Source: Chitinophagaceae bacterium
Lineage (GTDB): Bacteria; Bacteroidota; Bacteroidia; Chitinophagales; Chitinophagaceae
Length of the DNA: 64,000 nucleotides
NCBI GenBank assembly: GCA_947446645.1
Contig: CANFHA010000011.1
Location: 1-64,000, forward strand
Reading direction: 5' to 3'
A model generated the notes under the pieces. That model did no database searches. It had not been told where the DNA came from and saw only the letters and a program-made list of their open reading frames with translations. The position numbers and the translations under genes are program-made. Positions 1 to 27,000 of this stretch are shown piece after piece (the stretch's first letter is position 1; each line of letters starts with the position of its first letter).

Positions 1-128
1 GTGATATATTTTCGTTTTGTGAATACAAAGATATAAAACATTTTTGTAATAGACAAAATATATTTAATATATCTGTTGAAATCGTTGTCTGGATTGAGGA
101 AAAGTTTTCAACTATATCGGTATAGATT

Positions 129-770
129 TTAGTATTGACTTTTGACCAACCATTTTAAGAAAGGACTGGTCTTCACTCTAAAAAATAAAAAATGGAAGAC
201 CAAACAAAGGGGGTTTATAAACTGGATATTTACACTAAAGAATACATCTACTTTATTCTTACTTGAAACATTTCCTTTTGAATAAGCATTTCCATATGGA
301 GTATTAATTACTAACTCAATATATCTTGAGTTAACAAAGTTTAGAATTGGTTGTATTAGCCCCAAACTTACGTAAAATGCAAAATCAAATTCTTGGTCAA
401 TTACGGCCGCTTCTCCAATTGCGCCAACTCTTGTTATAAGAATATCTCCTATTTCAGGCTTCTTATTTTTTATACATTATAAATACGCTTCGTATGAAAC
501 ATACTTCCTATTATCAGGTGTAAACTTAAATGGCTTTACGTGCTGTGCTGAAATAAATGGAATGCCATCGTTTGTGTATGTTGGTGTTTGGTGTGTTCCG
601 TCAGTAATGTTTCTACATATTTCATCAAGTTTACACCAAATCCATTTTTGTGGAATATCAAAAAGTAGTTCATCTTGTTTTTCAGCTTCTTGTAATTTCC
701 CTTGCTTGATAGTTTTTTCAGCAATCAGTTTTCGGAGAAAGTCTGATTTAGTACGTGAGGCTATTACATT
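129..770 (-). pseudogene. hsdS: Degraded type I restriction-modification specificity subunit (HsdS), partial
   Basis: Read on the minus strand in one frame, this stretch encodes the linker and second target-recognition domain of an HsdS protein. A Lys/Glu-rich linker leads to FDIPQKWIWCKLDEI, then ITDGTHQTP, GIPFISAQHVKP, KPEIGDILITRVGAIGEAA and GLIQPI, the usual order of the Methylase_S domain. HsdS sets DNA sequence recognition for HsdM/HsdR. An in-frame TAA at 477-479 splits the reading frame. A stop at 771-773 removes the N-terminal half, and after about position 245 the protein no longer resembles the family. No hsdM or hsdR is present in the window. It is therefore a relic, either of a lost R-M system or of a silent hsdS cassette. 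The family call is fairly sure; the exact ends are not. Confidence 0.75.
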
Positions 771-940
771 CTATATCCAGAGCATACACAAACAATAATT
801 TACCCCACTCCAGCTCCTATATTTGCCGACAGAACGAAGTAGCAACTTGATGGTCTACTCACGAGAGAAAAGTCAAGGAAGGGGGCTTAAAATGAGGAAA
901 ATATGAAGAATACACCAACCACTGGGAAGTTCTCGAATCG

Positions 941-1207
941 ATGGCTGAAATGATGGTTGCACAAGGACGAAAAGCTCAGCTCCTAAATTCAACAGATAGC
1001 CCTTTACAAACAGCAGGAGAGATAGATTTTGAAATATTTGCTGTGAAAAGCCTCGTCTGTATTAGCAATGTTTTATATCGGTACAACTTTATGGCGGAGG
1101 GTCAGGCAGTATTAGAAGAGGCTGAAGGAGTGATTCGTACGATGGAAAATGATATTGACGAAGCGGATGCTCAGAGCTACGTCAAAATGGAGAGCCTGTA
1201 TTATTAA
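941..1207 (+). CDS. Hypothetical small helical protein, possibly a gene fragment
   Basis: An 88-residue acidic, apparently all-helical reading frame with no signal peptide or recognised motif. The frame stays open upstream to about 896 without another usable start, so it may be the 3' end of a truncated gene rather than a complete one. The second half (ISNVLYRYNF, VLEEAEGVIRTM) resembles a TPR-like helix pair, but that is only an impression. It lies between the broken hsdS and a truncated regulator, so decay is plausible here too. Confidence 0.3.
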   Translation: MAEMMVAQGRKAQLLNSTDSPLQTAGEIDFEIFAVKSLVCISNVLYRYNFMAEGQAVLEEAEGVIRTMENDIDEADAQSYVKMESLYY

Positions 1208-1211
1208 AAAA

Positions 1212-1373
1212 CTACAACTCAGAAGAAGAAGTAAATAACTCTTCAATTTTTATCCCCAGACCCTTGCATACTTGATTCAGATAAATGAATGAAGGATTAA
1301 ATTGTCCATTTTCTAAGTAAGCCCTCTTAATTGGTAAATCAAAGCCGTGTTTTTTACGACACGGCTTCTTATT
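1212..1373 (-). pseudogene. Truncated XRE-family (HTH_3) regulator remnant
   Basis: Minus-strand reading gives a C-terminal Cro/C1-type helix-turn-helix: RAYLENGQFNPSFIYL, then QVCKGLGIKIEELF, followed by a short tail and a TAG stop. These match the recognition helix and the closing helices of XRE regulators, which typically end in a LxxICKALGIxLxELF pattern. The first two helices are missing or scrambled, and no start codon fits. Such regulators often control restriction-modification genes, so this may be a remnant of the same island as the broken hsdS. The family assignment is reasonable; a link to the hsdS is inference. Confidence 0.5.
1342..1367. terminator. Perfect 8-bp hairpin
   Basis: AAGCCGTG (1342-1349) pairs with CACGGCTT (1360-1367) across a 10-nt T-rich loop. 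The T-tract after it is weak, so terminator function is uncertain. It overlaps the regulator remnant, which suggests that the sequence there has been rearranged. Confidence 0.35.
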
Positions 1374-1489
1374 GTCCTGAATTTTTTATACTTTCACGGA
1401 TATGCTACAAAGAAACTTTAAAGGGAAAGCATGGTTACAGAATTGAAGGTCCTGATGTAAATTTTGTTGATTGAATTTATTCGTGAGGT

Positions 1490-2107
1490 ATGAAAATATA
1501 TTTATTTATTGCCTTTTATTTTATTTTATTCTTAATTAGTTCATGTACTGATAGCCGTAGTTATGATAGTAATAACTCTGCTAACACCTCAAAGGAATAT
1601 ACTACTTCCCAAACTCAATCGTCGTCATTGCCGGCTGTAGAACAAAAGATAGAAGTTGATATTTGTAGATGTCTTACAGAACCACAAAATTCAGAATATA
1701 ATATAAAAAATAAGACTGCATGTTACGAGGCAATTGATAAGGAATTAGGAGTTGTGCATTGGTCATCCATAAATTTCAGACAGAATAAAGCCGTATCTCA
1801 ACGCTGGGATGATTTGGTTTATAAATGCACTGGTAAAAAAACAAATCATGCTGAAATAGCCGGAGAGTATGTAGGGACAAACAATTTCGGGAGCCAGTCA
1901 GTCATTACTCTTTATAATAGCGGAACGCTTATTATTCAAAGTGAAGGTTTGGATATGATAGGGGGAAGATGGACTGGAACGGCAGATGAGCTGAACTTAT
2001 ACACCAAAGATGATTATGGTAATGAGGTTCTTTTTGGAAATGCCAAGGTTAGGGAAGATGGGCTACAAATAACAAGTGGTGGCGGGTTTTATCGAAGGAG
2101 GCAATAA
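1490..2107 (+). CDS. Hypothetical lipoprotein
   Basis: A 205-residue protein that starts with a short basic end, a hydrophobic stretch and the lipobox LISSC, so it is predicted to be cleaved by signal peptidase II and lipid-anchored. A Ser/Asn/Thr-rich linker follows. The middle part has four cysteines (ICRC, KTACYEA, VYKCTG). The last 80 residues look like a small beta-barrel or sandwich (AGEYVG, VITLYNSGTLII, GGRWTGTADELNLY). No family is recognised. It lies 37 bp upstream of a DGR-target-like membrane protein on the same strand and may be co-transcribed with it. Function unknown. Confidence 0.75.
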   Translation: MKIYLFIAFYFILFLISSCTDSRSYDSNNSANTSKEYTTSQTQSSSLPAVEQKIEVDICRCLTEPQNSEYNIKNKTACYEAIDKELGVVHWSSINFRQNKAVSQRWDDLVYKCTGKKTNHAEIAGEYVGTNNFGSQSVITLYNSGTLIIQSEGLDMIGGRWTGTADELNLYTKDDYGNEVLFGNAKVREDGLQITSGGGFYRRRQ

Positions 2108-2144
2108 TTATAGTGAAAATACTTAACAGTTAAAAATTTTATAC

Positions 2145-2816
2145 ATGACACAATCTGAATTGAATTTGTATATCACACTAGGTGTATTGGTTTTAGTATT
2201 GATTGGAATATTATCGGAATATTCATTAAAACGCTTACTCTTAGTTGTTGTTTGTGTGCTCATCTACTGGTGTGGGTATTCATTGTATAACATACATTCC
2301 GCAAAGCAACAAATGGAACAACTACAAGGCAACTTAAAGAATTCATTAAACAACTTATCAGGCAATCTCGGTGAGAATAATCATGGACCAGAATCTGACA
2401 AAAAACAATATGCCCAATCTAAAAATGGCGATGGTGGAATAGTATATTGGACAGATGCATCAGGGCAACATGGATTAATGGCAGATGACCATGATCTGGG
2501 AGAGATGAACTGGGAGGAAGCCAAGAGAGCCTGTGAGGCTAAAGGCAATGGCTGGCATTTACCTACAAAGGAAGAACTACTGAAGCTATATGAGAATAAA
2601 GACAAGGTAAGCGGGTTGAAAAATTCCTCCTATTGGAGTTCGAGTGAGGTCAACTACTACGGCTACGCCAACGCATGGGTCCAGTATTTCCCCAGTGGCG
2701 TTCAGGCCAACGGCAGCAAGAACGTCTCAAACTACGTGCGTGCAGTTCGGGCTTGTAATCAGGTAATCAAGAAAATAGATAGATATATGTGGACTGGCCA
2801 AAAAATCGAAGGATGA
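2145..2816 (+). CDS. Membrane-anchored C-type-lectin-fold (DUF1566/Lcl-type) protein with DGR-like variable C-terminus
   Basis: A 223-residue protein with two N-terminal hydrophobic helices (about residues 9-27 and 29-47), a Gln/Asn-rich linker, then a DUF1566/Lcl_C-type domain. The landmarks are GGIVYWTDASGQHG, NWEEAKRACEAKG, WHLPTKEEL, YWSSSE, AWVQYFPSG and YVRAVRAC. This domain has a C-type lectin (formylglycine-generating-enzyme-like) fold and is a common target of diversity-generating retroelements. Residues about 162-203 match the layout of DGR variable regions, and most of their codons end in C, unlike the AT-rich rest of the gene. No reverse transcriptase, Avd or template repeat is visible in this window. 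Ligand binding is inferred from the fold. Anchoring by membrane helices rather than a lipobox is unusual for such targets. Confidence 0.8.
   Translation: MTQSELNLYITLGVLVLVLIGILSEYSLKRLLLVVVCVLIYWCGYSLYNIHSAKQQMEQLQGNLKNSLNNLSGNLGENNHGPESDKKQYAQSKNGDGGIVYWTDASGQHGLMADDHDLGEMNWEEAKRACEAKGNGWHLPTKEELLKLYENKDKVSGLKNSSYWSSSEVNYYGYANAWVQYFPSGVQANGSKNVSNYVRAVRACNQVIKKIDRYMWTGQKIEG
2628..2752 (+). repeat. Candidate DGR variable region (VR)
   Basis: From codon 169 (position 2649) eight consecutive codons end in C: GTC AAC TAC TAC GGC then TAC GCC AAC. About twenty of the following thirty or so codons are NNC. This is what adenine-directed mutagenesis of AAC codons in a template repeat would leave. 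Fixed scaffold residues (WSSSE, AW, SG, YVRAVRA) sit where DGR targets keep them. The matching template repeat was not found in the window. Confidence 0.6.
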
Positions 2817-2838
2817 TTTGGCCAGTCCTTTTCTTTCT
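2791..2838 (+). terminator. 12-bp perfect hairpin after the lectin-fold gene
   Basis: GGACTGGCCAAA (2791-2802) pairs perfectly with TTTGGCCAGTCC (2817-2828). The loop contains the stop codon of the gene, and a T-rich run follows. It fits an intrinsic terminator. Because it stands about 40 nt after the variable region it could also be the hairpin that DGRs need downstream of their target. Confidence 0.75.
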
Positions 2839-3130
2839 CATTTTGTTATTTATAGAGCAGCTGCAGAGCAGCCGTAAAGATTCTCAATACAGAAAAAGAC
2901 GGTTTTGGACAAGGCTGGACATCCACCTCCATTTTGATAGTTTTTGAAAAATACTATGACGCGTCCAAAGATGTCCAGATTTGTCCAAATTCAATACGGC
3001 GCAGAGTGCTAATTTCAGTCCGCAAAAAAGCTTCCTAAATCTGGGGCTATTTTTTTTGCGCCTTTACCCCTTGTTTATTCCTGATTGTTAACAATTTGTT
3101 GAGGTAAAGGAAACATTAATGTAACTATTT
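2829..3130. other. Non-coding stretch with inverted repeats
   Basis: No plausible gene is seen between the lectin-fold gene and giant protein 1. The stretch contains a long two-part inverted repeat (2905-2988). It also contains a hairpin made of CGCAAAAAA (3021-3029) and TTTTTTGCG (3052-3060) flanked by a run of eight T, which may stop transcription. Confidence 0.6.
2905..2988. repeat. Two-part inverted repeat, 19-nt arms, 46-nt spacer
   Basis: The left arm is TTGGACAA, ggc, TGGACATC (2905-2923). The right arm is GATGTCCA, gat, TTGTCCAA (2970-2988). Both 8-nt blocks are perfect inverse complements and the central 3 nt do not match. This layout resembles binding sites for a dimeric DNA-binding protein or a recombinase site at an element boundary. 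No such gene lies next to it. Confidence 0.7.
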
Positions 3131-3154
3131 AATAACACTGCTTAGGCACTTTTG
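3131..3154 (+). promoter_or_regulatory. Shared promoter-like box upstream of giant protein 1
   Basis: AATAACACT, 7 nt, then CACTTTTG. The second element fits the Bacteroidota -7 motif TAnnTTTG except at its first base. The same two elements with the same 7-nt gap occur before giants 2 and 3 and before two other surface-gene units in this window. The gene start at 3180 lies 25 nt downstream. Confidence 0.6.
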
Positions 3155-3179
3155 TAGCTCGCTAAATAGTGTTAATATA

Positions 3180-6100
3180 ATGTTCCAATTTAATAGAGTT
3201 GCAGTCTCCCGATTTGTGCTTTTTGTCAACACTTTATTAATACTTTTTTTTACCACTCACAACATTAATGCTCAGCCGTTTACTCCCGGCAGCCTTGTTG
3301 TTTTAAAAGTAGGAGATGGCACCGGGCTCACCAGCGCCGCACAGCCAATATCTGTACTGGAGTATTCAACCTCTGGCGTAGCTTCTGGTGTCAACATTGT
3401 GCTCCCTTCATCAGGTTCAGGTCCGCGGATAACGAATAGTGGAACTGCTACTTCAGAAGGGCAGATGACATTGTCTGCGGAAAGAGACCGGTTGATACTT
3501 GTGGGCTATGATGCGAACGCCGGAACTACAGGAGTAGTAACGTCTGCTTCGTCTGCCGTGAACAGACAAATGTTTGCGATCACACCTGCTGCAACGTATT
3601 CGCTTGCTGCGTCTACAGCTACTTTGTATAACGGAAACAACATTCGTTCAGGTACTGCCTCGGGCTCAAATTACTTCGGAGGAGGACCAGGAAGCGGCAT
3701 CAGCTTAATGAATGCCGGATTTTCGCTTATGACTACGCCGGTAGTCAATACCAGGGTTGTTCAGATATTTAATGGGCAGATCTATTTTTCGTCTGCAACA
3801 GGCGCTAACCTCGGAGTGTTATCACTTGGAACAAACATAACCACTGCGTGTTGTGCAGCTTCAACATTGCTTAATGCATCACCTTCGCCAAGCGCGTATG
3901 GCTTTTCATTAAGTCCTGATGGGAATACACTCTACATTGCTGATGACGCGCAAGGTATTAACAAGTATACGAAAAGTGGTGCAACCTATGCACTTGCCTA
4001 CAACGTTAATTCAACGTTGGTGCGGAGTATTGCTGTAGATTATTCGAGTGTTAATCCAATCATCTATGCAACAACGGCATCTTCTATAACACCAAACCAG
4101 ATCATTAAAGTTACAGATGCGGGAATGAGTTCGACATCAACAGTGCTTGTTGCTGCATCGCCTGCCAATACGGTGTTTCGCAGTATTTCGTTTACTCCAT
4201 CCTGCCAGGCAAGTATAACGTTGTTGAGTTTGCCTTCTGTTTGTGTGGGTAGTACTGCCAAAGTGGTTATAAAAGGTAATCCAACAGGAGTTGTTTCCTA
4301 CAATGTAAACGGCGGTGCAACGCAGACTACTACTATAGATGCGCGTGGGTACGATACAGTCAACATTGGCCCACTAACAGGTAACACGACTATTAACCTC
4401 GTGAGCATTAACACACCGGCATGCACGGCGGCGCCGGTAACTGGTAGTGTTTCAGTAAATGTATTTCCGACATTTAGTGTTACTGCCGTATCAAATGACG
4501 GTCCCCTATGTGCCGGCAACGATTTGCACCTTGGAGCCAGCATTAGTGCGTCTGTAAGCCCTTATACCTATGTATGGAGTGGTCCGGCAGGTGCTGTAAG
4601 CAGCCTCGGGTCTACAGCCTCACTTACCAGTTCCGTAACTGTAACGACTATACCCACGTTACCAACTTTCCCAGCATACTCACTTGCGGTAACAGATGCT
4701 ACCGGTTGTGCGGCTTATGCAACCACAACTACAACGGTAAATGCCAGGCCGGTCTCCTATTCTGTATTCGGTTCCGGAAGTTATTGCTCGGGTGGAGCTG
4801 GGGTAGATGTTCAGTTGAGCAATTCAGAGTCTGGTGTAAACTATCAGCTTTACAATTCATCAGGCACCGTAGGAGTTGCGATAGCAGGAACCACTGGCGC
4901 TCCGCTCGATTTCGGAGTGCAGCCCGCCGGTATATATACCATTTCAGCGATAAATTCAACGAGTGGTTGTAGCAACAGTATGTCTGGGTCTGCAGCGATA
5001 ACGATGAATCCTTTACCTGCTGCGATAACAGGGAATGTGCCGTTGTGCGTATCCTCGGTTATTCCACTTACTGATGCCTCGGGTGGAGGCACGTGGAGCT
5101 CAGGTAACAGTTCTTTAGCGTTATTAAGTTCTGGTACAGGCATTGTAACGGGCGTTAGCGCTGGTAATCCGCTTGTCACCTATACGTTGCCTACAGGTTG
5201 TTTTATCACTGCGGTATTAACGGTAAATCCGACACCCCTTCCCATATCTGGTCCGGGGGGAGTCTGCATCACCTCAACTATTTCGTTGTCTGATGGAACA
5301 GGAAGTGGCAGCTGGTACAGCAGTAATACGGGCGTTGCTACCATTGTAGGTGGCTTAGTTAGTCCCGTTAGTTTAGGAACAACGACAATCAGTTACGTTG
5401 TGCCCACCGGTTGCATGGCAAACCGAATTATAACAGTAAATCCGTTGCCGGCAGCGATAACGGGATCGATGAATGTATGTGTGGGGTTAACAACGACATT
5501 GACTGACGGCGGTGGAGGAACCTGGAGCACAGCAGGTGCGTCTTTCGGGTCGATTGATGCGGTTACTGGTATACTCACAGGCATTACAGCAGGTACAGCT
5601 TCCGTGACTTATACGTTACCAACTGGGTGTACGATTAACAACATTGTGACGGTGAATCCACTGCCACTAAGTATTAACGGAGGACTTAACGTTTGTGCCG
5701 GATATACCACAACTTTAAATGAGCTGACATCCGGCGGAAGCTGGAGCAGCGGAAATGTATCGATCGCGTCTGTCGGATCCGGCAACGGCATTGTGTCCGG
5801 GATCACTGCTGGAAATACAAATATAACCTATACGCTGCTAACGACAGGCTGTTATACAAGTACTTCATTTACCGTTAATCCGTTGCCGTCGATGATCAGC
5901 GGCCCGGCGAATGTTTGTGCAGGTTCATTAACCACGTATTCAGATGCTTCCGGTGGCGGTACATGGGCAAGCAGCAACACAGGGATCGCCACTATAGGAT
6001 CTGGCAGCGGTGTGCTTTCCGCAATTATGGCGGGAACTACTACACTCACCTATACCATTGGTACCGGGTGTACAATAACTACGACGATTACCGTAAATCC

Positions 6101-9100
6101 GCTACCTGCGGCTATAAACGGATCGGGTCGTGTTTGTGAGGGGCTTTCGACAAGTTTTTCTGATATCACACCTTTGGGAAACTGGATAAGTGGCCTGCCG
6201 GCAAGTGCGTCTGTCGATGCAGTTGGTAATGTGACTGGCCTGGTTTCCGGGACCGTAGTTATATCTTATCAATTGCCTACTGGTTGTTATACAACCTCTG
6301 TACTAACTGTTGATCCGCTTCCCGGGGCTATCGCAGGTCCATCGGGCATGTGTGCCGGCTCTTCTACAGTACTTACTGATGTTGCAACCGGTGGAAGCTG
6401 GTCGAGCAGCAATCCCAGCTTTGTTTCTGTTAATTCCGTTTCCGGGCTTATTTCGGCTATCATGGCAGGATCTTCCACGGTAACGTATACTTTGCCCACT
6501 GGTTGCCTTGTAACAATGGGTGTAACGGTGAACCCCTTGCCGCCTGCAATTACGGGTTCAGTAGCGGTTTGTGCAGGTGCTTCGTTCCCATTGACCAATG
6601 CAGCGGCAGGTGGGACATGGAGTAGTAGCAATACTTCGTTTGCGGATGTAGGTTCAGGTAGCGGTATTGTTACCGGTACGGGTGGCGGATCTCCGGTAAT
6701 CACGTATACTTTACCAACATCCTGCTACACAACTGCAGTGGTCACTATTAATGGGCTGCCTTCTGTTATATCAGGAAGTACGGTTGTTTGTTTAGGTGCA
6801 ATCAGTTCATTATCATCTGCACCCGCCGGAGGCGTCTGGAGCAGCAGTGCACCAAGTAGTGTGAGCATTGGTTCTGCAACAGGAATAATTAGCGCTAATT
6901 TAACCGGCGCTGCAACTATAACGTATACTTTGGGTACGGGATGTAAAACAACAACGGAGGTTACAGTCAATCCGCTGGCTCCCGGCATTACAGGAACTAC
7001 TATTGTATGTCCCGGTGCTACAATCACTCTAAGTAATGTTGTTCCTGGTGGAACCTGGAGCAGTACGGCAGTCTCAGTAGCCACTGTCGGCTCGGTTTCC
7101 GGAATTGTATCAGGGATGTCAGCGGGAGCTGCGGTAATTTCTTATCTGCCACCATCTGGCTGTGGTAACTATATCACCGTTACAGTTTCGCCTTTACCTG
7201 CCACGATATCCGGGAACCGTTCACTTTGTCCCGGTTCTGCAAATAACCTAAGTGATGCGACACCGGGAGGCAACTGGAGCAGCAGCGATGCAAGCATTGC
7301 GACAATTATTCCTGCAACAGGTGATGTGACAGGTGTAGCGATAGGCACTGCCATAATAACCTATACTTTGCCAACAGGATGTTTTATTACCGGCACTGTG
7401 ACGGTCAATCCATTGCCTGCTTCCATTACAGGGTGGGCAAGGCTTTGCGCAGGAGCAACAACATCGTTGAGCAACCTGTCTGCCGGAGGCACCTGGACGA
7501 GCTCAGCACCGGGAACTTTTACCGTATCTTCTTTGTCTGGCATTGTTACCGGAGTTTCAGCAGGTACAGCTTTTGTTACTTATTCGCTTAACACCGGGTG
7601 TATTGCTACGGCATTGGTCACAGTAGATCCGTTGCCCGCTGCCATTTTGGGAACGAGGGCAATATGCCAGGGGCTTACGAGCTCGTTTACAGACGTTAAT
7701 ACCGGAGGTGCCTGGATCAGCGCACTACCGCTGACCGCATCCATTGATGCAGTAACAGGTATTGTTACCGGCATTGCTACTGGTACGGCCACCATAAGCT
7801 ATACACTGCCCACAAGCTGTGCAATAACAGCAGTCGTGACAGTAAATCCATTGCCAAATCCTGTTACAGGTAATACGCCACTGTGTGTTGGTGCAGTAGT
7901 AACTTTAAGTGATGCAGGAGGTGGCTCCTGGAGCACTATGACACCCGCAGTAGCAACAGTTGGCGGTGCCGGAAACGTCCTGGGTATAGCAGCAGGAACC
8001 GCTATTGTAAGCTATACTTTGCCAACAGGCTGTGGCACTACAACAATAGTTACTGTGAACCCGCTTCCGTCTGCAATTAGCGGCGCTTCGGATGTATGTA
8101 TTGGTCTGAATACAATGCTGACTGATTTAAGCCCGGCAGGATACTGGAGTAGCGGAAATGTAGCAGTGGCTGTAGTAGATGCTGCAAACGGCATTGTAAC
8201 TGGCGTATCGGCCGGGAGTGTAAATATTACTTATTCATTTTTGGCAACGGGCTGCAGCGTAGTGAAGACAGAGACAGTAGTGCCTTTACCTCCGGCTATC
8301 AGCGGCCCGGCAAGCTGGTGTGTTGGCAATACAGTATCGCTTAGTGATCCCTCTCCGGGTGGAATCTGGAGCACATCAGATCTCAACATTTCGATAAGTC
8401 CATCCGGTAGTGTAACCGGCTTATCGGCAGGCACTGCAAATGTTACTTATACTATTCCGGCGGGATGTGCTTCCATAAAGAATGTTACAGTAAATCCATT
8501 GCCGCCAGCAATCGCTGGTATCAAATTTATTTGCGCCGGAGCAAATACGACGTTGTCAGATGCTGCTCCGGGGGGCACATGGAGCAGCGGTGTTCTATCT
8601 GTAGCAAGCATCAGCGGATCTGGTTTACTGTCCGCTTTCAGCGCGGGAACTTCCATAGTTAGCTATACGCTGCCGACTGGTTGTGCGACAGCTACACTTG
8701 TGACCGTAAATCCATTACCAGCAACAATAGGCGGGCAATTAGCGATATGCACAGGAGTAACGTCCACACTTTCTGATCTGTCGCCGGGTGGTCTCTGGAG
8801 TGTTGATCCCTTGGTGGCGGGTATTGCAGTTATTGATCCTATTAACGGAAGCGTATCTGCACTGGCTGCGGGCACTGTTGGCGTTAGCTATACTTTGCCC
8901 ACAGGTTGTTTTGTGAATACTATACTTACAGTAGATCCTATACCACTCACAATAACTGGAACAACTTCAATTTGTGTTGGGACTACCTCAGCACTTTCGA
9001 ATGTTACTATTGGCGGGGTATGGAGCAGCAGCAACTCATCTTTGGCCTCTGTCGGTTCATTGACCGGCGTGGTCTCTGCTATCACAGATGGTACAGCGAT

Positions 9101-11168
9101 AATCAGCTATAGAATTCCAACAGGTTGTTTCACAACGCTTCCGTTTATTGTAAATCCGCTACCCGCTTCTATCACCGGTAACAGGAGTGTTTGCCTTGGT
9201 GCGAGCTCACTGTTAAGTGACGCGTCAGCTGGCGGAACATGGAGTATCAGTGGTTCCCCTGTAATCGCCACAATTGGCGTTTCCAGCGGATTGGCGTCAG
9301 GAGTATCATTAGGAACGTCAGTTGTTACCTATACATTACCTACCGGATGCTCTATAAATTCTTTACTTACAGTGAATCCATTTCCCGCGGCTATTTCGGG
9401 AGACACTATTCCCGTATGCCAGGGGTTCAATATTTTTTTAAGTGATAGTACGCCGTCAGGGATATGGAGCAGCGCTAATCCTGAAATAGCCGGGGTAGTT
9501 GCCGGGACTGGTGTTGTGAATGGAACAGCTGCCGGCACTGTTAGTATATCGTATACGCTGCCCACCGGTTGCGGAGTGGTCGCAGTTGTTACCGTGAATC
9601 CATTGTTCCCTATATCAGGCAGCAGAACTGTTTGCACCGGGTCTGCCATCTCGCTGAGCGATCTTGCGGGTGGTGGTACATGGACGAGCAGTAATAGCAG
9701 TGTAGCGACAATAGGAAGCATAAGTGGCCTGGTTGCAGGGCTCGCTTCTGGAGCTACGTTGATCAGCTATCACCTGAACACGGGCTGCACTGCAATTGCG
9801 GCAATTACCGTAAATGCGATTCCTGCTGCCTTCAATGTTGCAGGTGGCGGCGCTATATGCGCTGGTGCACCGGGAGTGCCCATTACGCTTGATGGTAGCT
9901 TTCCTGCTGTCAATTATGAATTGTTCAATGGATCTGCATACGCAGGCACACAACCCGGTTCAGGAGCATCTGTTAGCTTTGGCCCTTTTGCAACTGCAGG
10001 TTTTTACACTGTTCGTGCTACAGATGCGGTAACGGGATGCGTAGCGGAAATGACAGGAAGCGCAATAATAACAGTAAACCCGAATATTGCACCCGTAGTT
10101 TCTGTATCTGTTGATCCTGGGTTGGTCGTATGCGAAGGAACTACTGTGTCATTTATTGCAAATGCAATAAATGGTGGCGCATCCCCTTCTTACCAGTGGT
10201 TAGTAAATGGTATTAGCGTGGCAACTGGTGCAGGATATAGCTATATCCCGCTGAACAGCGATTCTGTTTCTGTTGTGCTTACCAGTAGTGCATCTTGCGT
10301 ACTGCCTGCTACTTCATCGGCCGGTGTAGTTATGAATACGGTAGCCGGTGTCGTGCCTTCTTTAAATATTTCGGCAAGCCCCGGAGATTCATTGTGTCCC
10401 GGTACACCGGTTACACTTACCCCCACACCAATGTTTGGAGGGTTCACTCCAGCCTATAGGTGGATAAAGAATGGTATTTATGTGGGTACCGGCAGTAATT
10501 ACACTTATTTGCCGGTCGATGGCGATAACGTCTTCTGTGAGTTACACAGCAGTTTAAGCTGTAGTCTTGTCGACACGGTGTATAGCAACAACATAAATAT
10601 GCATGTGCCACCTATCAGCATACCAATTGTTTCTCTCAGCGCCTTTCCTGGTCTTGTTATCGCAGCCGGACAAGCTGATACTCTTGTGGCCGACGTAGTA
10701 TTTTCAGGCCTGAGCCACAGCTACCAGTGGACGATAAATGGTGTGCTGATACCAGGTGCTAACTCAGATACGTTTATAAGCAATACTTTTAACAATCTGG
10801 ATACGGTAAAATGTATAGTGACTGGTAATAGTACTTGCGGCTCTACTGAGCGAATTTCGCAGGTTATTATCTTAGAGACAAAAGCGCTGGCCTTAACAGG
10901 GATTGAAAACTCGCTGGATGAGATAAGGCTTTTACCTAATCCGAACAATGGCACTTTCGTGATCAAAGGGCAGGTATCAGCAATTGAAGAGATAAGCGTA
11001 GAGATAACCGATATGCTTGGTCAGAATGTTTACTCTAAAGTTGCCAGGGTGCAGAATGGATGGGTTAATGAGGACATAAAGCTCGGCGGCCTAGCCAATG
11101 GTATGTACTTGCTCACATTGAAATCAGGTGGCGCCAATAAGGTGGTGCATTTTTCAATAAGCCAATAG
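3180..11168 (+). CDS. Giant T9SS-secreted Ig-repeat protein 1 (2662 aa)
   Basis: A Sec signal peptide (cut after about residue 31, INAQ) leads to a propeller-like module of about 315 residues (GDGTGLTSA, SAERDRLILVGYDA, YGFSLSPDGNTLYIADD, VDYSSVNPIIYATT). Ig-like domains follow, then 22 BIG_2-type repeats of about 73 residues (about 608-2212), then three longer Ig/PKD-like domains, and a T9SS type A sorting domain from about 2573 (LPNPNNGTF, DMLGQNVYS, LANGMYLL). Each BIG_2 repeat has one Cys after strand A (VCxG) and one near the end (TGC), which suggests an internal disulfide. It is probably exported by the type IX system and anchored to the cell surface as an adhesin or matrix protein; this role is inferred from architecture only. 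It has its own promoter box, and a shared terminator lies before the convergent EEP gene. Confidence 0.92.
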   Translation: MFQFNRVAVSRFVLFVNTLLILFFTTHNINAQPFTPGSLVVLKVGDGTGLTSAAQPISVLEYSTSGVASGVNIVLPSSGSGPRITNSGTATSEGQMTLSAERDRLILVGYDANAGTTGVVTSASSAVNRQMFAITPAATYSLAASTATLYNGNNIRSGTASGSNYFGGGPGSGISLMNAGFSLMTTPVVNTRVVQIFNGQIYFSSATGANLGVLSLGTNITTACCAASTLLNASPSPSAYGFSLSPDGNTLYIADDAQGINKYTKSGATYALAYNVNSTLVRSIAVDYSSVNPIIYATTASSITPNQIIKVTDAGMSSTSTVLVAASPANTVFRSISFTPSCQASITLLSLPSVCVGSTAKVVIKGNPTGVVSYNVNGGATQTTTIDARGYDTVNIGPLTGNTTINLVSINTPACTAAPVTGSVSVNVFPTFSVTAVSNDGPLCAGNDLHLGASISASVSPYTYVWSGPAGAVSSLGSTASLTSSVTVTTIPTLPTFPAYSLAVTDATGCAAYATTTTTVNARPVSYSVFGSGSYCSGGAGVDVQLSNSESGVNYQLYNSSGTVGVAIAGTTGAPLDFGVQPAGIYTISAINSTSGCSNSMSGSAAITMNPLPAAITGNVPLCVSSVIPLTDASGGGTWSSGNSSLALLSSGTGIVTGVSAGNPLVTYTLPTGCFITAVLTVNPTPLPISGPGGVCITSTISLSDGTGSGSWYSSNTGVATIVGGLVSPVSLGTTTISYVVPTGCMANRIITVNPLPAAITGSMNVCVGLTTTLTDGGGGTWSTAGASFGSIDAVTGILTGITAGTASVTYTLPTGCTINNIVTVNPLPLSINGGLNVCAGYTTTLNELTSGGSWSSGNVSIASVGSGNGIVSGITAGNTNITYTLLTTGCYTSTSFTVNPLPSMISGPANVCAGSLTTYSDASGGGTWASSNTGIATIGSGSGVLSAIMAGTTTLTYTIGTGCTITTTITVNPLPAAINGSGRVCEGLSTSFSDITPLGNWISGLPASASVDAVGNVTGLVSGTVVISYQLPTGCYTTSVLTVDPLPGAIAGPSGMCAGSSTVLTDVATGGSWSSSNPSFVSVNSVSGLISAIMAGSSTVTYTLPTGCLVTMGVTVNPLPPAITGSVAVCAGASFPLTNAAAGGTWSSSNTSFADVGSGSGIVTGTGGGSPVITYTLPTSCYTTAVVTINGLPSVISGSTVVCLGAISSLSSAPAGGVWSSSAPSSVSIGSATGIISANLTGAATITYTLGTGCKTTTEVTVNPLAPGITGTTIVCPGATITLSNVVPGGTWSSTAVSVATVGSVSGIVSGMSAGAAVISYLPPSGCGNYITVTVSPLPATISGNRSLCPGSANNLSDATPGGNWSSSDASIATIIPATGDVTGVAIGTAIITYTLPTGCFITGTVTVNPLPASITGWARLCAGATTSLSNLSAGGTWTSSAPGTFTVSSLSGIVTGVSAGTAFVTYSLNTGCIATALVTVDPLPAAILGTRAICQGLTSSFTDVNTGGAWISALPLTASIDAVTGIVTGIATGTATISYTLPTSCAITAVVTVNPLPNPVTGNTPLCVGAVVTLSDAGGGSWSTMTPAVATVGGAGNVLGIAAGTAIVSYTLPTGCGTTTIVTVNPLPSAISGASDVCIGLNTMLTDLSPAGYWSSGNVAVAVVDAANGIVTGVSAGSVNITYSFLATGCSVVKTETVVPLPPAISGPASWCVGNTVSLSDPSPGGIWSTSDLNISISPSGSVTGLSAGTANVTYTIPAGCASIKNVTVNPLPPAIAGIKFICAGANTTLSDAAPGGTWSSGVLSVASISGSGLLSAFSAGTSIVSYTLPTGCATATLVTVNPLPATIGGQLAICTGVTSTLSDLSPGGLWSVDPLVAGIAVIDPINGSVSALAAGTVGVSYTLPTGCFVNTILTVDPIPLTITGTTSICVGTTSALSNVTIGGVWSSSNSSLASVGSLTGVVSAITDGTAIISYRIPTGCFTTLPFIVNPLPASITGNRSVCLGASSLLSDASAGGTWSISGSPVIATIGVSSGLASGVSLGTSVVTYTLPTGCSINSLLTVNPFPAAISGDTIPVCQGFNIFLSDSTPSGIWSSANPEIAGVVAGTGVVNGTAAGTVSISYTLPTGCGVVAVVTVNPLFPISGSRTVCTGSAISLSDLAGGGTWTSSNSSVATIGSISGLVAGLASGATLISYHLNTGCTAIAAITVNAIPAAFNVAGGGAICAGAPGVPITLDGSFPAVNYELFNGSAYAGTQPGSGASVSFGPFATAGFYTVRATDAVTGCVAEMTGSAIITVNPNIAPVVSVSVDPGLVVCEGTTVSFIANAINGGASPSYQWLVNGISVATGAGYSYIPLNSDSVSVVLTSSASCVLPATSSAGVVMNTVAGVVPSLNISASPGDSLCPGTPVTLTPTPMFGGFTPAYRWIKNGIYVGTGSNYTYLPVDGDNVFCELHSSLSCSLVDTVYSNNINMHVPPISIPIVSLSAFPGLVIAAGQADTLVADVVFSGLSHSYQWTINGVLIPGANSDTFISNTFNNLDTVKCIVTGNSTCGSTERISQVIILETKALALTGIENSLDEIRLLPNPNNGTFVIKGQVSAIEEISVEITDMLGQNVYSKVARVQNGWVNEDIKLGGLANGMYLLTLKSGGANKVVHFSISQ
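5011..9816 (+). repeat. Array of 22 BIG_2-like Ig repeats in giant protein 1
   Basis: Twenty-two units of about 210-225 bp follow the pattern VNPLPxxIxG, VCxG, LSD, GGTWSSSN, VATV, GxVTG, AGT, ITYTLPTGC. They are conserved as protein but clearly diverged as DNA, so this array is older than the near-identical arrays of giant protein 3. Confidence 0.85.
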
Positions 11169-18004: not shown

Positions 18005-18028
18005 GGTAACATTGCAATACCACTTTTG
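18005..18028 (+). promoter_or_regulatory. Shared promoter-like box upstream of giant protein 2
   Basis: GGTAACATT, 7 nt, then CACTTTTG. It ends only 4 nt before the ATG at 18033, so the transcript may be nearly leaderless. It also rules out the longer TTG start at 18012, which lies inside the box. Confidence 0.6.
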
Positions 18029-18032
18029 CAGC

Positions 18033-21000
18033 ATGAGAAACAGTTCTGCCACGCTGCGGTATTTAATCGGTGCGCCTGTAAAGTATTTTGCGTTAATCCT
18101 TCTTTTTACAACTTATCTATGCGGTGGCAGGGCGTTTGGACAGACAGACCCTGTTGCCCAGGCATTGCCATACACCCAGAATTTTTCTACACTTACAGGC
18201 AGCACAACAACATACCCGGCAGGTTTCCAGGGATGGGCTGTGCCGGGTTCACTTACATCTGTTGCGTTAACTGCCGCACCATCAGGTAACCTGCCTTTGT
18301 TTGCAGGGCAAACCAATGCAACCACTACTCCGTTTGTTGGAGATATGTGGGGTAAAATAGGGATATTGTCTGGCTCATCTGTGAATGCACTCTGTCTTGC
18401 GCTCAATACTACTTCTGTTAGCGCAGGTAATGTGCAGCTTATCTATACTGCGGCAACGCAGGGGCAAACCGCGGGTGGATATGTAGACGAACTGGATCTT
18501 CAATACCGTGTAGGCACCTCCGGTGCTTTTACTACAATAGCAAATGCCACCTACCGCAATAACGCACTGACTACAACTAATACAGCCATAACTACAGCCG
18601 TTAATCCTGCTACAGTTTATGTTGTATTGCCTGCTGCTTGCACTAATCAGCCGGTTGTAGAGTTAAGATGGATATCCAGGACCGTATCGGGCAGTGGTAC
18701 TGTGCATCCGGGATTTTCCATTTCGAATGTTGTTGCGCAGCAAAACACCACAACGGAATATTATAGCAAATCTGCAGGCAACCTGGATGCGCTATCTACC
18801 TGGGGGACAAATCCCGATGGCAGCGGAGCAGCACCCGCATCATTTACGGCAGATGGCCAGGTGTTCCATATATCAAACGGCACACCAGGTACATTGGGTA
18901 GTAGCTGGGCCGTATCCGGAGCCGGGTCAAAGATCGTAGTAGATGGCACAGACTTTACAAATACGACTTCAAATACAATAACGGCTACAATAGATGTAAA
19001 CGCCGGAAGAACTCTGACGTTGCAGAATGCAACCATCCCAACCTTAGGTGCCATGAGCCCGTATAGTACGGTAGTGTTTTCAAATCTTACAGGTGTTACT
19101 ATTCCTACAGTAACGCCATCCTATGGCAGCATCACTTTCAATAATTCAACTGTAACCTTGCCCACAGCAAATCAGAAGGTGCACTTTTCAGGAAATTTTA
19201 CACTCCTGGGTACATCAGTATTTAACGGTGCAGATGCCACCAAGGGATACTCCCTGACTGCCTACGGAAATAATGCACAGGTAATAAATGCTAACAGCTT
19301 ACCCCTGACTTTATGGAATCTTGACGTAGGAAGTACTAACCTGAAAACTGCTGGTCCGGTTACGTTAGCCGCAAGCACCACTATTACTACCCAGAACAGC
19401 GTGCTTATGGTATTAAGTGGCAGTACTCCACTTTTTAATGATGGTGGCAACACAATCAATGTCATTAATAATTTTGACTGTGGTGGCGCGGCTTCGGCAT
19501 ACAATTTCACCGGCACGGTAAGTTTGAATTCCACTGGTGGCGGATCTTGTAACATCAGGGGCAATGGCGTGTCTTCAAATCCTTGCGTGGCAGCAGTGAA
19601 TAACCTGGTGCTCAATAACGCTATAAACGTAAAAATAAACCCAGCTATAGGTGGCTCAACATTTGTAGTTAAAGGCAACCTGACTTATTCTGCTACTGCC
19701 GTAGGGCACTTTAATAGCCAGGATAATAATATTTCTGTTGGCGGAAATTTTAATTATGCCAACTCCGATAATACTTTGCTGAGTACGGGTGCAGGTGCGT
19801 TGATATTTAATGGTGCCGGTGTGCAAACGTATAGCTCAAGTGTAACCGGGGGAAATACACTAAGTAATATTACCATGGCTAATACTGGGGGCGGACTTGT
19901 GCTAAACGCGCCATTAACCATTACCGGCAATGTTACACTAAACAATGGTATCATAGCTACGGGCAGCTACTCACTTAGTGTAGCTGCGAGTGGCGTCGTC
20001 TCTGGTGGAAACAGCGCATCATATGTAAACGGTAAACTGGTGAAGGCAATGCCTGCAGCAGGCACTACTAGTATGTTTTACGAAACCGGGGATGTAAACA
20101 GTTATGCTCCCATTCAACTCACCTTCAGCAGCATTATAAACAGCGGAAGTATTGCTGCCAGTGCTATACCTGGTTCTCATCCATCATTATCTGCATCTTA
20201 TGTCAACGCAAGCAATTTTGTAAATCGATACTGGACGATAACAAGTACCAGTGTAAATCCTGCAACTGTAAACATTGCCTTGGGCTATAACAGCGCAGAC
20301 ATTACCAGTGGTCTTGGTCTCAATACAGGTTATACAATCAGAGAATTTACGGGTGGTTCATGGAGCACATTACCTTCTGTTGCCAATACAACCAGCGCAG
20401 CTGCACCTATGCTACCTTTTTCATCTTTTTCTACAGGTGTGAACGGCAGCACATTCTCTGGTGATTATGTTGCAGGTGCATTTGATTGTACAACTTCTGC
20501 CGGCACTACTACCGGAACACCAGCTTTTCTGTGTGGGTCGGGAACTACCACGCTTAGCCTGGCGGGAGCAACTACCAATACCGGTAACAGTTATCAGTGG
20601 CAGTCATCTGCCGACGGCTCATTATGGACAAACATCACAGCCGCCACGGGCGCTACGTATACAACCTCCGTAGTTGCTACTTCAATTTACTACAGAAATA
20701 TTGTTGGATGTATTCCCACTTTAACAACGCTGAACTCTGCTACTGCGCTTGTTTCTGTTAATCCGCTTCCGGCTTCTATCAGCGGTATCACAAGTGGCTG
20801 CATAGGGCTTAGTGCCACATTGAGCGATGCTACAGGTGCAGGTACATGGTCTAGCAGTAATACAAGTGTAGCAACTATCGGATCCTCCGGCACTTATAAT
20901 AGCCTGGCGTCTGGCAATGCTACGATCACGTTCACTGCAGCTGGTACAGGTTGCATTGCTACTACGCAACTAACGATCAATCCTACGCCTCCGGCACCGG

Positions 21001-24000
21001 TGGTGTCGCCGCTGCTTGTGAGCCTTTGCCCCGGTAGCCCCGCCCGTTTAATTTCGGCATCGGGAGACACCGCAGTACTTTCTTTTGCCGGTAATTCGGG
21101 AGGCATATCTATCCCTATACCATATAACACAGCTATCACCAGCACCATACCCGTAAGCGGTATTCCCGCAGGTGCAATTATCACGAATGTTGCCGTTACG
21201 TTCAGCGATTCAAACTCGTCAGGCTCACAAGGAAGAGACTTTGTATATAATCTCGGTGCACCTAATGGTAACATTCTTAACCTGATCAATGCTACAGGCG
21301 GTTCTGCACCAAATTACCATTTCCGCAACATCCAGGTTGGATCAGCAGGCACGGTAGTGCAAGGAACAACTCAATTGGTGCCGGGCGTGCTGTACAGTGC
21401 CTCCCTTGTCAACGGTGTTCCTTCTACCGCCGGTTTTACCACTCCGGCACTTAGATCAAACGTTACCAGCTGGTCCAGCTTATACAGTACCCCCAATGGG
21501 AACTGGACCTTCATAGCAGATAATATATATGCATTTGGCGCCGGTGAAGGCACCCTGGCAAACTGGATATTGAATATCTCATATATCGTTCCTCCTGTAG
21601 TGACATGGACGCCGGCATCAGGCCTTTTTACCGATGCGGGTGCTAGTATACCTTATTCGGGCGCCAATGCCGGCAGCGTGTACGCAAAACCTGCGTTAAC
21701 TACTACTTACAATGTTATAGCGGCGATTGGCGCATGTACCAACACGGCTACAGTTGTAGCACAACAGAATCCGGTCCTTTATCTGCCTCCTTTATCCGGC
21801 CCCTCTGTATTGTGTTTTGGTTCTAACATAAATTTGACAGACTCTGTAGACGGTGGTGTTTGGAGTAGCTCAGGATCGGCCTCCATTGGTTCTGCCTCCG
21901 GCATAGTCATTGGCACAGCAGTCGGTACCGCTGTGGTTACTTATACTTATTCAAATGGGGTTTGTTCTGGTTCTGTTACAAAGGTAATTTCTGTAGACGC
22001 ATTACCTGCAGTATCGCCTATAACCGGGACCGCTAATCTTTGCTATTCTGGCGCGCCGGTAATAACATCGCTGACCGATGCAACAACGGGCGGCGCGTGG
22101 AGCAGTGGGAATACCGCTGTTGCAAGCGTTGTCGGTTCTACTGGTGTTGTAACGGGTATATCTGTCGGAAGCTCAATCATCACTTATACTTTTAATGACG
22201 GGAACTGTTCTGCCACGGTAAATGCAACTGTGAATGTATTTAATCAGCCGTCTGCCGTAAGCGCATCGCCAACATTTGCTTATGTGTGTGGAGGTAGTGC
22301 GCCACAAATCTTTACTGCTTCGGGCGGACTTATACCGGGCCGCACAATGGCCGCATCAGGACCGATCTCAGTACTGTGTACTACCATTACACCAACAGCG
22401 ACTACGCTTGATGTAAGTGGAGTGCCGGCAGATGCTACTGTTACCGGCATAGCGGTTACTTTTAACGTCAACTGCAGTTATGATGGAGACGCCGAATTAA
22501 ATCTTGCTGCGCCCAACGGAAGCGTTATTAATTTGTTTTCTGCCGGAACGGGTAATAGCGGTGTTAATTTTGTGAATACAACTATTAGTTCTGCAGGTGT
22601 CACAGCTATTCCCAATTCCGCAGCCGGAGCTCCATGGACGGGTACCTATGCAGCAAGCGCACGTACTAATGCGGCATTGACCAGGCCTTTCTCGTCATAC
22701 TCTGTAACCACTACTTCGTGGGCACCACTGAAAGCATCCAATCCTAACGGGACATGGTCTCTTGTGGGGCTTGATAACTATAAGGATTCTACGTTTACAA
22801 TTACATCATGGTCTATAAGTATCTCTTACAACTACCAGGCAAATGTCACCTGGGCCGGCGTAGGTGGATTGTACACCAATTCGGCGGGGACGTTGACTTA
22901 TACAGGATCAGCAACGGACACAGTATATTCAGCTCCTGTTAGCACTACCATCTATACGGTTTCCTCTACAAATGGTACCTGCAGCAGCACAGCCAATGTG
23001 ATCATGTCAATCAATCCGGCTCCGGCGCCTATCTCTGGCAACCTGGGAGTTTGCCTTGGTTCAAATACACAACTTACTGACGCAGGAGGTGGTACCTGGA
23101 GCACTGCCAGTCCGAATATTTCAATTGGCAGTTCTGATGGACTTGTTACAAGTGTATCTCTTGGTACTGCCGTTGTCACCTATACATCAGTGACCGGTTG
23201 TGCCATAACAGCTGTAGTAACAGTGAATGCTGCGCCGAACGCTATAAGCGGAACACTAACGGTATGCCAGTTGCGTGCAACTTCACTGGCCGACGCCGGA
23301 GGCGGAACCTGGTCGAGCAGCAATCCGGGTAATGCATCAGTTGGCAGCGCCGGCCTGGTAACTGGGGTAACCGGTGGTACTACCGCCGTGATCACATACG
23401 CTCTGCCTACTGGTTGCTTTACAACAGCAGTTGTTACTGTAAATGTAGCGCCATCAGCTATCACCGGCACGCGTACTGTTTGCGTAGGCGCTACTACTTG
23501 CCTGAGTGACGCGGTTGCGGGGGGGACATGGAGCAGCAACAACGGCAATGTAACTGTTGGCTCTACAGGTTGCATTACCGGTGCCGTCGCAGGCACAGCA
23601 ATCTTGACTTATAAGTTGCCCACGGGTTGCGTTAGCACTATCATTACAACTGCTAATCCTGTACCAGCGAATATTACTGGTGTATTAGTTGCCTGTCAGG
23701 GTACAACAACCCAGCTTACGGATGCTGGTGCTGGCACATGGAGCAGCAGCAATACCGCCGTGGCCACTGTGGCTGCTGGTTTAGTGAGTGGCGTGGCCGC
23801 TGGCACCAGTAACATTAGTTTTTCATTTTCTACAGGATGCGCTGCGGTGAAGGTGGTTACAATTAATCCTTTACCGGGTACAATTGGTGGAAATTTGGCA
23901 ATATGTCTCGGGTCCGCCAGTCAGCTTACCGATGCGGACGCCGGTGGCACATGGGTTAGTAGTAACGGCAACGTGACTATAGGATCGACCGGGCTTGCGA

Positions 24001-27000
24001 CAAGTGCAGTACCTGGAACTTCAACTATTACCTATACTTTACCTACAAGCTGTGCAACAACAACTACTGTAACAGTAAATGCCAATCCGGGAAACATCAA
24101 CGGCGTACTCAAAATATGCCAGGGAGCGGGAACGCAACTAACCGATGCCGACGCTGGTGGAACATGGTCGAGCAGTAATGCTGGTAATGCAACCGTATCC
24201 GGAGCTGGTTTTGTATCCGGTGTCGGGGGTAATACTACAGCAACCATAACCTACACTTTGCCTACCACCTGTAATAGTACTGCGGTAGTAACAGTCGATC
24301 CATCACCCGAGGCAATTGACGGAACTTTGGCTCTATGCCGTGGTGAAGTAACGCAATTGTTCAACCCCGTAGCCGGCGGTACATGGAGCAGCAGTAATAG
24401 CAATGCGATTGTTGGGTCGGCGGGATTGGTAAATGGTGTAACGGCAGGTACGGCAATTATCAGCTATACATTGGCCAGCGGTTGCGGCGCAACAGCTGTA
24501 CTTACCGTAAATGCTGACCCCGGTGCTATAAATGGAACGCTTTCCGTATGTGAAAGTGCGACTACACAACTTACGGATGCTGGTGCGGGAAACTGGGCCA
24601 GCAGCAATACTGCTAATGTTAGTATTTCTGCATCCGGACTGGCAAGCGGAATTATCGGTGGTACTACGGCCATAGTTACCTACACCTTGCCTACGGGCTG
24701 CAGCATTACAGCAATTGTTACAGTAAATCCGCTGCCGGCATCAATAACCGGAACCTCTGGCGTATGCCAGGGTGCAACCATTCAGCTATCAGATGCAGGC
24801 GGTGGTACATGGAGTGCAGACGGTATAAATGCCAGCGTAAACAGCACTGGTCTGGTTACCGGACTTACAGGCGGCAATACGGCGATCATTACCTATACGC
24901 TTCCTTCAGGTTGCGCAGCTACTACTACCGTTACCGTATATTCATTACCTGCGCCTATATCGGGTGCCGGAGGTGTTTGTGTTGGCACAACCATTACTCT
25001 GAGCGACGCTGATGCCGGCACATGGAACGGAAGTAATGCAAATGCAACTATAGATGGTTCAGGAAATGTTACCGGTCTGTCATCGGGTTCCGTCGTGGTT
25101 ACCTACACAACAGGCAGCGGGTGCACTGCCAATGCCGCTCTTTCTGTATATGCAGCTGCCAATCCAATATCAGGAATCGCTACCGTATGTGAGGGAGGGA
25201 CAACAGTGCTTTCTGATGCAGGTGGTGGAAGCTGGAATTCGAACAACGGGAATGTGTCCGTGAATATATCTGGTGTTACAACAGGTGTTAGTGCGGGCAC
25301 TTCTATCATAACATACACTTTGCCGGTCGGCGGGTGTTATACAACCCGGGTGGTAACCATAAATCCTCTGCCTTCACCAATTATTGGCGCTTCAACGGTA
25401 TCAGTAGGGTATACTACACAACTGAGCGATGCCGGTAGTGGCATCTGGGCAGTTAATAATGCTAATGCAACTATTGATGCCTCAGGATTAGTTACGGGCG
25501 TGTCAGCTGGTACATCAATCATTTCGTATACACTATCAACCGGTTGTTATGTCACCCACACGATTACAATTGTTGCTACACCGCCCGCTATTACCGGAGA
25601 ACTAACTGTATGTGCGGGTTCCGCAACTGTTTTAAGCGATCCGGGATCAGGCACGTGGAGCAGCAGTAATGTCAATACTTCTGTGGGGTCAGCTACGGGT
25701 ATTGTTACCGGCATCAGCGCAGGTACTTCAATAATTACTTTCTCATTCACCGGTGGAGGCGAAGTATATGCTACCGTCACAGTAAATCCATTGCCACTTG
25801 CGATAACCGGGCCAGATTCGGTTTGTCAAGGATCACCAATTACACTGACCGATGCTTCAGGAGCGGGGTCGTGGGGCACTACGGCAAATGCCGTCATAGG
25901 CTCTACCGGAGTGGTAACTGGTATTAACCCTGGCACAGCTACAGTAACCTTCGCCTTCAACACAACTGGTTGCTCTGTTTCAAAGGTGATCACAATAAAT
26001 GCATTGCCGGAATCAATATCAGGCAGTAATCGTTTATGTGTTGCTTCAACAATTTCGCTGACGGGCTTACCCGGCAGTGGTATCTGGGCAGCCAGCAATA
26101 CAAATGCGACCATTGGCTCATTGTCTGGATTGGTTAGCGGTGTTTCACCCGGTTCTACTACGATTACTTATACATCAGCATCGGGTTGCTTTATCACTAA
26201 AGGCATATCCGTTGATGCATTGCCCGGGCCTATAACAGGTACTGCCAATATTTGTGTTGGACAGAGCATTACGCTCAGTGATGCAGGCAGTGGCTCATGG
26301 AGCAGCAGTAATGGCAATGTAACAATTGATATGGAAACAGGCCATGCAGTTGGTGTGTCCGCTGGAACATCCGTTATCTCCTATATTCTGTCTACAGGAT
26401 GTTTCACTACTGTGGTTGTTACTGCAAATGCCGCAGTTATGCCGTCGGTCACAATTTCTAAGACCAGCGCTGACACTGTTTGCTCAGGTACATCAGTTGT
26501 GTTTACAGCAACTCCGCTAAATGGTGGCGCGTTACCTGTATACGAATGGAGCTTAAACGGCTCAATAATTGGGGGTGCCACATCGGATATTTATAGTGTT
26601 GTTCCTTCAGATGGAGTTAATATAATAACTGTTGGACTCACTAGTAATGCTGCATGTGCAATGCCGTCAATGGTTTCAGCAGCGGATACCTTCGTTGTTA
26701 TACACACAAATACCAGTTCTGTCAGTGTGTCTGTATCGCCCAATGATACTGTATGTTTGGGTTCATATGCTCTGTTTACGGCGTTAGGTAGTAACGCAGG
26801 TAGCAGTCCCGTATATACATGGTTAGTTAACGGAGCTCAGGTTGCTACCGGCATAGCATATGGTTATGTCCCGGGCAATGGTGATGAAGTTTATTGTACT
26901 GTTGCCAGCAGTCTTCGTTGCGTGGCCGCAGACACTGTTGCAAGCAATCATATTACTATGTCTGTTGACACCTCTTATATACCTACGGTTGAAATTAACG

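Follow-up and report, generated by a model that had tools for sequence, protein, structure and literature searches.

The segment 2628-2751 of the window, the 64,000-nucleotide stretch of a Chitinophagaceae genome analysed here, is, as judged from DNA comparisons with related species, a genuine DGR variable region (VR) that stands as an orphan in its own assembly. In a diversity-generating retroelement (DGR), as established for Bordetella phage BPP-1, a reverse transcriptase (RT) copies RNA of a template repeat (TR) into cDNA in which adenine positions receive random bases, and this cDNA then takes the place of the corresponding 3' part of a target gene. The full reading, held at a probability of about 85%, is that a DGR of the family found in congener G019 wrote this VR into a gene of a separate, membrane-anchored Lcl_C subfamily, which is now an orphan target. 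The first-pass annotation had proposed a DGR-type variable region at 2628-2752; this proposal is supported by the fit of the VR to a congener TR at nearly all non-adenine sites, and the coordinates were nearly exact, the first variable codon being 2628-2630 and template homology running out at ~2751.

Table 1. Predicted features of the target locus, in window positions.
Feature	Position	Strand	Basis
Target gene: two hydrophobic segments, linker, Lcl_C domain, C-terminal tail of ~20 residues	2145..2816	+	ORF listing, profile search, hydropathy
First hydrophobic segment, residues 7-23	2163..2213	+	hydropathy
Second hydrophobic segment, residues 31-47	2235..2285	+	hydropathy
Lcl_C (C-type-lectin-like) domain	2463..2750	+	profile search
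VR	2628..2751	+	alignment to TRs of congeners; 9 bases (3 NNC codons) longer than known TRs
Eight consecutive NNC codons inside the VR	2649..2672	+	codon count
Nearly invariant 3' end of the VR (TACGTGCGTGCAGTTCGGG); putative place of the initiation-of-mutagenic-homing segment	2733..2751	+	alignment
Perfect 12-bp hairpin, then TTTTCTTT; terminator-like, speculatively also a DGR target-site hairpin	2791..2828	+	sequence inspection

Adenine-directed changes in the variable region

The differences between the window VR and the TR of congener G033 lie mainly at template adenines, with 21 of 44 adenine sites changed against 3 of 68 others (P = 6e-8; a cross-species comparison, in which the Fisher test treats sites as independent), and a protein-guided alignment gave 20 of 44 against 3 of 67. 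Where a VR was longer than the TR, as the window VR is by nine bases, the counts omit the excess bases following the GAG codon. The nucleotide test took in 14 VRs, with G010a, G010b, G013 and G018a aligned but left out of it, and the protein-guided test took in all 36 sites of a motif search, including four TRs (that of G006, identical to one G019 TR, was merged with it). The motif search misses the C26-48k VR of the own genome, which reads VLAVR, and returned nothing in the loci given for G003, G015, G017, G023, G027 and G028. The genomes G019, G006, G033, G018, G010, G008 and G026 are other species of the same genus, one genome per species.

Among same-locus VR-TR pairs, 17/43 adenine and 0/69 other changes were counted in G019b, 20/44 and 0/68 in G033, and 22/43 and 2/69 in G006; the pair G019a was less clean (27/43 and 5/69), and the G018 VR differed from its own TR at 16/44 and 6/68 sites, respectively. 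Two more VRs of the own genome, C26-48k and C26-51k, each had 19 of 44 adenine sites changed, together with 3 and 9 of 68 other sites, respectively. A non-DGR Lcl_C paralog on contig C4 of the own genome, used as a control, showed no adenine bias (25/44 against 35/67, P = 0.39). A low P value alone is no proof of a VR, since a set of intermediate genes (G019 L125, L127 and L104, G010 L032, G008 L131, G011 and G012, and the G013 and G018 VRs) reaches P values of 0.0002 to 0.02 with 13-25 non-adenine changes, and it is the low non-adenine count that sets the window VR apart; the intermediate genes may represent old VRs, or VRs with a different TR.

The first-pass annotation had also noted eight C-ending codons in a row from 2649, within a mostly NNC stretch on an AT-rich background, and had ascribed them to adenine mutagenesis, an origin with which the above counts of 21 adenine and 3 other changes agree. 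The run is of exactly eight codons and is the longest among the 21 window genes listed (the next longest is 5), and in the densest part of the target gene 20 of 30 codons end in C, versus 22.8% of the 19,411 codons in the other 20 window genes (binomial P = 4e-7, uncorrected for the choice of stretch); the densest 30-codon stretches of the next five best genes contain 15-17. The GC content is 57% in the VR, 41% in the target gene and 46% in the window, and the AT-rich background thus holds for the gene but is less apt for the whole window. Ordinary codon bias as the cause of the NNC stretch was ruled out by the codon counts and the template comparison of the 36 sites.

In the protein-guided alignment, 17 of the 18 C-ending codons of the TR keep their C in the window VR, versus 1 of 18 in the C4 paralog and 63-67% in rpoB of the three nearest species (binomial P = 0.007, with one gene as the yardstick), a retention which argues for recent writing or recent arrival of the VR. 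Against the favoured DGR reading, the own assembly yielded no TR or RT, so that the VR-TR comparison is cross-species, and the five TRs found are nine bases shorter than the window VR; the missing GAA-loop hairpin of the window gene and the NCBIfam scores of avd and RT, both described below, likewise count against it. The G019a VR (L035 9412-9540, on G019 contig C106) likewise carries nine extra bases, and the two VRs have in common an eight-codon stretch where the five TRs have five codons; no TR with eight codons was found in the 35 genus genomes, and an unsampled TR is therefore implied.

Cassettes and orphan variable regions in the genus

The components of a complete DGR, namely RT, TR and the accessory protein gene avd, were all without a match in the own assembly (32 contigs totalling 4.71 Mb, with 98.4% completeness and with gaps). 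RVT_1 gave no match in it at E <= 10, in a search that was positive in 4 of 14 control genomes, and neither did the G019 RT as query, which was positive in G019, G006 and G033. Searches for the TR with VR DNA, avd-TR DNA and a TR pattern yielded only VRs and weak matches, and no avd was found by DNA search, which a diverged avd could escape. The first-pass annotation had seen no RT or template repeat nearby, which extends to the whole assembly, and had suggested looking in the genome for an RT and for a repeat matching 2628-2752 except at adenines: these exist in a sister species, G019, with two full cassettes, but were not found in the own assembly. The RT and the TR are absent from the assembly, yet the adenine-directed differences are strong.

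VR-like DNA was detected by DNA search in 11 of 60 genomes (own genome included), all of the same genus and hence in 11 of its 35 genomes. Five TR copies occur in 4 of these 35 genomes and a cognate RT (89-100% identity to the G019 query) in 3, or in 8 when weaker matches are counted. Predicted orphan VRs are common in the genus. A complete RT is present only in G019, in two copies, each within a complete cassette of the order target (Lcl_C), avd, TR and RT. The G019 RT scores 76.7 bits to RVT_1 and possesses the motifs IGNLTSQ and YVDD, which we take to count toward the DGR RT class, while its avd scores 77 bits to bAvd; against Lcl_C, scores of 44 and 56 bits were obtained for the two targets. 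The NCBIfam Avd model gave 65.1 bits on the avd, below its cut-off of 80, and none of the NCBIfam RT models reached its cut-off for the RT (the nearest, a group II intron model, was far below), so that the DGR class of this RT rests on neighbours, motifs and phage matches. It is 42-44% identical to the RTs of Bacteroides phages F2/F4, records apparently linked with the B. uniformis phages that, according to PMC8143477, carry DGRs. No RT match of at least 60% was found in the 105 phage and 481 plasmid matching records; the viral contigs contained one RT relative at 42%, and two protein searches of them gave one and nine relatives, respectively, of the target proteins, at 33-46%.

Other congeners retain parts of the cassette. 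Both G006 and G033 possess TR and avd, but similarity to the RT ceases near residue 288 of 414 in G006, ~280 bases before the contig end, and at about residue 229 of 414 in G033, inside a 14-kb contig. In G018, target, avd and TR are present and the RT is absent after the TR; at this locus (L046 997-1300), the TR is followed by unrelated sequence, seemingly repeated nearby, in place of the RT. Truncated avd copies occur in G010, G008 and G026, mostly after VRs. Three copies in G010 (L042 8087-8439, 9528-9735 and 15575-15907, of which one lacks a VR) and a single G008 copy (L038 10651-10919) stop at almost identical avd positions, which looks like duplication of a unit of VR plus partial avd. 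The cassettes of G019 and G033 are 91.5% identical at nucleotide level over 1,508 columns, versus 83.8% for rpoB, which suggests that the cassette moved between species; the G019 and G006 cassettes are 98.4% identical, G006 being without an rpoB match for comparison.

Both further VRs of the own genome lie on contig C26 (L010), one in a target gene truncated on its 5' side by the contig end and the other in a 3' target fragment. This fragment (L010 6707-6997, minus strand), with a little decayed VR and no visible 5' part, lies directly past the stop of a Big_2/T9SS adhesin gene. C26-48k was considered as a diverged TR and ruled out by its VR-type 3' flank (GCTTTTTAA) and its 19 changed adenine sites out of 44. 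The predicted target genes at both own loci adjoin Big_2/T9SS adhesins. The window itself contains giant ORFs at 3180-11168 (2662 aa, with Ig-like repeats and a T9SS sorting domain), 18012-27530 (3172 aa, with one Big_2 match in the first 1000 residues) and 27805-43407 (5200 aa), and, on the minus strand at 1-500, what is presumably a fragment resembling a type I restriction specificity subunit.

The first-pass annotation had left a choice between a remote (trans) target and the relic of a lost cassette, and these are still the right pair of alternatives. It is probable that the chromosome lost the cassette and that the VR is frozen and slowly decaying, in line with the successive stages of cassette decay among the congeners (a broken-off RT in both G006 and G033, a TR without RT in G018), the truncated avd copies after VRs in G010, G008 and G026, and the nine non-adenine changes of C26-51k; the same situation has been published for Treponema denticola strains, in the relevant part of PMC4891356. 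A relic nonetheless sits less easily with the little decay of the window VR, and the assembly has gaps, while several genus genomes are fragmented and their breaks could be assembly errors. None of the three own VRs is more than ~3.5 kb away from a contig end (4.8% chance for one random site), and the left end of C11 and the right end of C26 are among the 23 of 64 contig ends without a repeat in common with another end; the comparison of these two ends gave neither an overlap nor a common repeat. A missing segment is thus a live possibility. TR, avd and RT could accordingly reside in a gap by these two ends, or on an unbinned mobile element, and still be rewriting the window gene. Such an active trans target would suit the position of the VRs, the little decay of the window and C26-48k VRs (3/68 non-adenine changes each) and a cassette that seems mobile, given its G019-G033 identity relative to rpoB and a resolvase gene 3' of the RT in one G019 cassette; with RVT_1, G019 RT, TR and avd all unmatched in 4.71 Mb, it is possible rather than probable. 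The congener G010, with three VRs on one 80-kb contig, is also without RVT_1 (E <= 0.01, in a search of 34 genomes rather than of the whole genus), so that orphans seem real.

The target gene and its origin

The first-pass annotation had described the gene as a C-type-lectin-fold DGR target with two membrane helices, unusual for such a target. The ORF encodes a predicted protein of 223 aa with an Lcl_C domain (PF07603) at residues 107-202 (46.2 bits in one profile search, versus a curated cut-off of 34.9, and 48.7 bits in another), and the VR occupies the 3' end of the gene for this C-type-lectin-like domain, as in DGR targets. The two helices were recovered as hydrophobic peaks (17-residue Kyte-Doolittle means of 2.51 and 2.39 for residues 7-23 and 31-47, respectively); a passage of PMC7517822 mentions membrane localisation for some cyanobacterial targets. 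The KR between the two segments suggests, by the positive-inside rule, that both ends of the protein are placed in the periplasm. A membrane-anchored binding protein of the periplasm is the probable product, its binding surface being frozen or still changeable in trans. Among sequences of solved structures, HbP1 (PDB 8q4e) is the nearest, a likeness by sequence with E = 3.7e-6 over residues 95-203, and botrocetin, a C-type lectin, matches at E = 0.48 only.

Within bases 1-3180, matches to DGR loci elsewhere in the 35 genus genomes are confined to 2626-2761 (up to eight first-look candidates per genome were scored), and looser scoring gave 75% identity over 2626-2766. The part before the VR is 54-58% identical (73-85 bits) to three Lcl_C paralogs without a VR (L123, L134 and L140), versus at most 33 bits to VR-bearing targets among the 36 sites compared; many long-bodied non-VR paralogs also score low against it, so that it is the subfamily that counts and not the missing VR. 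The gene is a mosaic, with the VR alone akin to DGR loci in DNA and the rest of its domain nearest to non-DGR Lcl_C paralogs, and a gene outside the standard targets may thus have received the VR by DGR writing.

The perfect 12-bp hairpin that had been reported after the VR is present (Table 1). Its stem begins 41 nt past the CGG ending the VR, and its 14-nt loop is followed by a T-run, which makes a terminator the default reading; it is nevertheless missing from the output of a terminator scan that allowed loops of at most 8. The loop contains CGAAG at +57, versus +46 in most of the other loci with such a loop, and the same motif occurs in the loop of one other among 13 GC-containing hairpins in 111 kb sampled; as a putative target-site signal it is only suggestive. 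A different hairpin, with a stem of at least 4 bp (CCGC/GCGG in eight cases and GGGC/GCCC in one) and a GAA (once GAG) loop, lies 35-46 nt past the VR at nine of the 17 other loci examined, among them all five with adjoining avd and TR (G019 twice, G033, G006 and G018), and is absent or broken at 8 loci, all without an adjoining TR. Such hairpins were found in the flanks of L035, L036, L037, L038, L040, L045, L046 and L010. The window gene, where this hairpin is absent, has the conserved 3' end of the VR and a different, terminator-like hairpin.

In the favoured reading, a DGR of the G019 family would have written the VR by mutagenic retrohoming, recently relative to species divergence, diversifying the binding surface of a membrane-anchored lectin-like target. 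Either homing or recombination of the VR by itself would have placed it in an Lcl_C gene belonging to a distinct subfamily with a membrane anchor, and this gene would now be an orphan target, its cassette lost or residing in unassembled or mobile DNA. As a tentative version, to which we give somewhat less than even odds, cDNA homing at the conserved YWSSSE...VRAVRA codons (target hopping) would have made a new target out of a membrane-anchored Lcl_C paralog, the VR being copied without flanks and the paralog's own terminator hairpin (CGAAG loop, stem 41 nt past the VR) replacing the target-site hairpin. Possible rather than probable is that the target gene was acquired as a whole, together with its VR, from an unsampled lineage in which the DGR normally targets the compact Lcl_C subfamily: the window gene lies on the left side of 3076, the point at which similarity to the G015 locus ends, and the eight-codon stretch in common with the G019a VR implies an unsampled TR, but among the 36 sites compared no VR-bearing target with a compact body was found, the window gene aside. 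That the segment is biased but ordinary Lcl_C sequence without any DGR is very improbable, since, although alignments show YWSSSE and VRAVR to be conserved in Lcl_C proteins anyway, 16 of the 36 motif sites have an NNC fraction of at most 0.48 (0.03 in the own paralog) and show 13-35 non-adenine changes of 66-67, versus 3 in the window VR, and the TR match makes it unlikely.

Relation to known systems

DGRs are targeted protein hypermutation systems, and the genus spans intact cassettes, a TR without RT and orphan VRs, one of them in another Lcl_C subfamily. PMC10907252 raises the question of how genes come to be new DGR targets and discusses duplication and recombination in one passage; a VR-only graft, if true, would be a further testable route, and target hopping, if true, would represent a caught example of a new target without domain duplication. 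A VR-only graft into a non-target paralog did not appear in the literature on DGR targets examined, which is no claim of its absence from print. If confirmed, the mosaic of the window gene, with only its VR grafted into a different Lcl_C subfamily, would be a new feature, while orphan and remote DGR targets have been described before. RT-centred surveys can miss orphan targets such as the window gene, and PMC8144416 notes in one passage that remote targets would escape that survey.

A close parallel is offered by Treponema denticola, where, in the passages of PMC4891356 concerned, orphan targets of strains without RT and TR differ from the TR of relatives mostly at adenines and are read as leftovers. 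That case concerns one species, with lipoprotein signals in 62% of targets, whereas here the comparison is cross-species, the target has membrane helices and only the VR is common in DNA. Remote variable proteins and action in trans are described in parts of PMC7517822 for cyanobacteria and of PMC10907252 for Thiohalocapsa PB-PSB1, with targets far from the cassette, degenerate loci, evidence for trans action and VR-domain shuffling, resembling the present case; unlike the own assembly, those genomes contain RT and TR. DUF1566 (now Lcl_C) is a frequent DGR target domain according to sections of PMC4159848 and PMC6642488, with the same domain and a VR at the 3' end as in the window gene, but those targets were located by way of an RT or TR present in their own data set. 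In BPP-1, as described in part of PMC3240598, a hairpin with free stem sequence and conserved loop lies shortly past the VR; the GAA/GAG-loop hairpins at 9 of the 17 other VR loci resemble it, whereas the window hairpin, with its longer stem and loop and its T-run, reads as a terminator.
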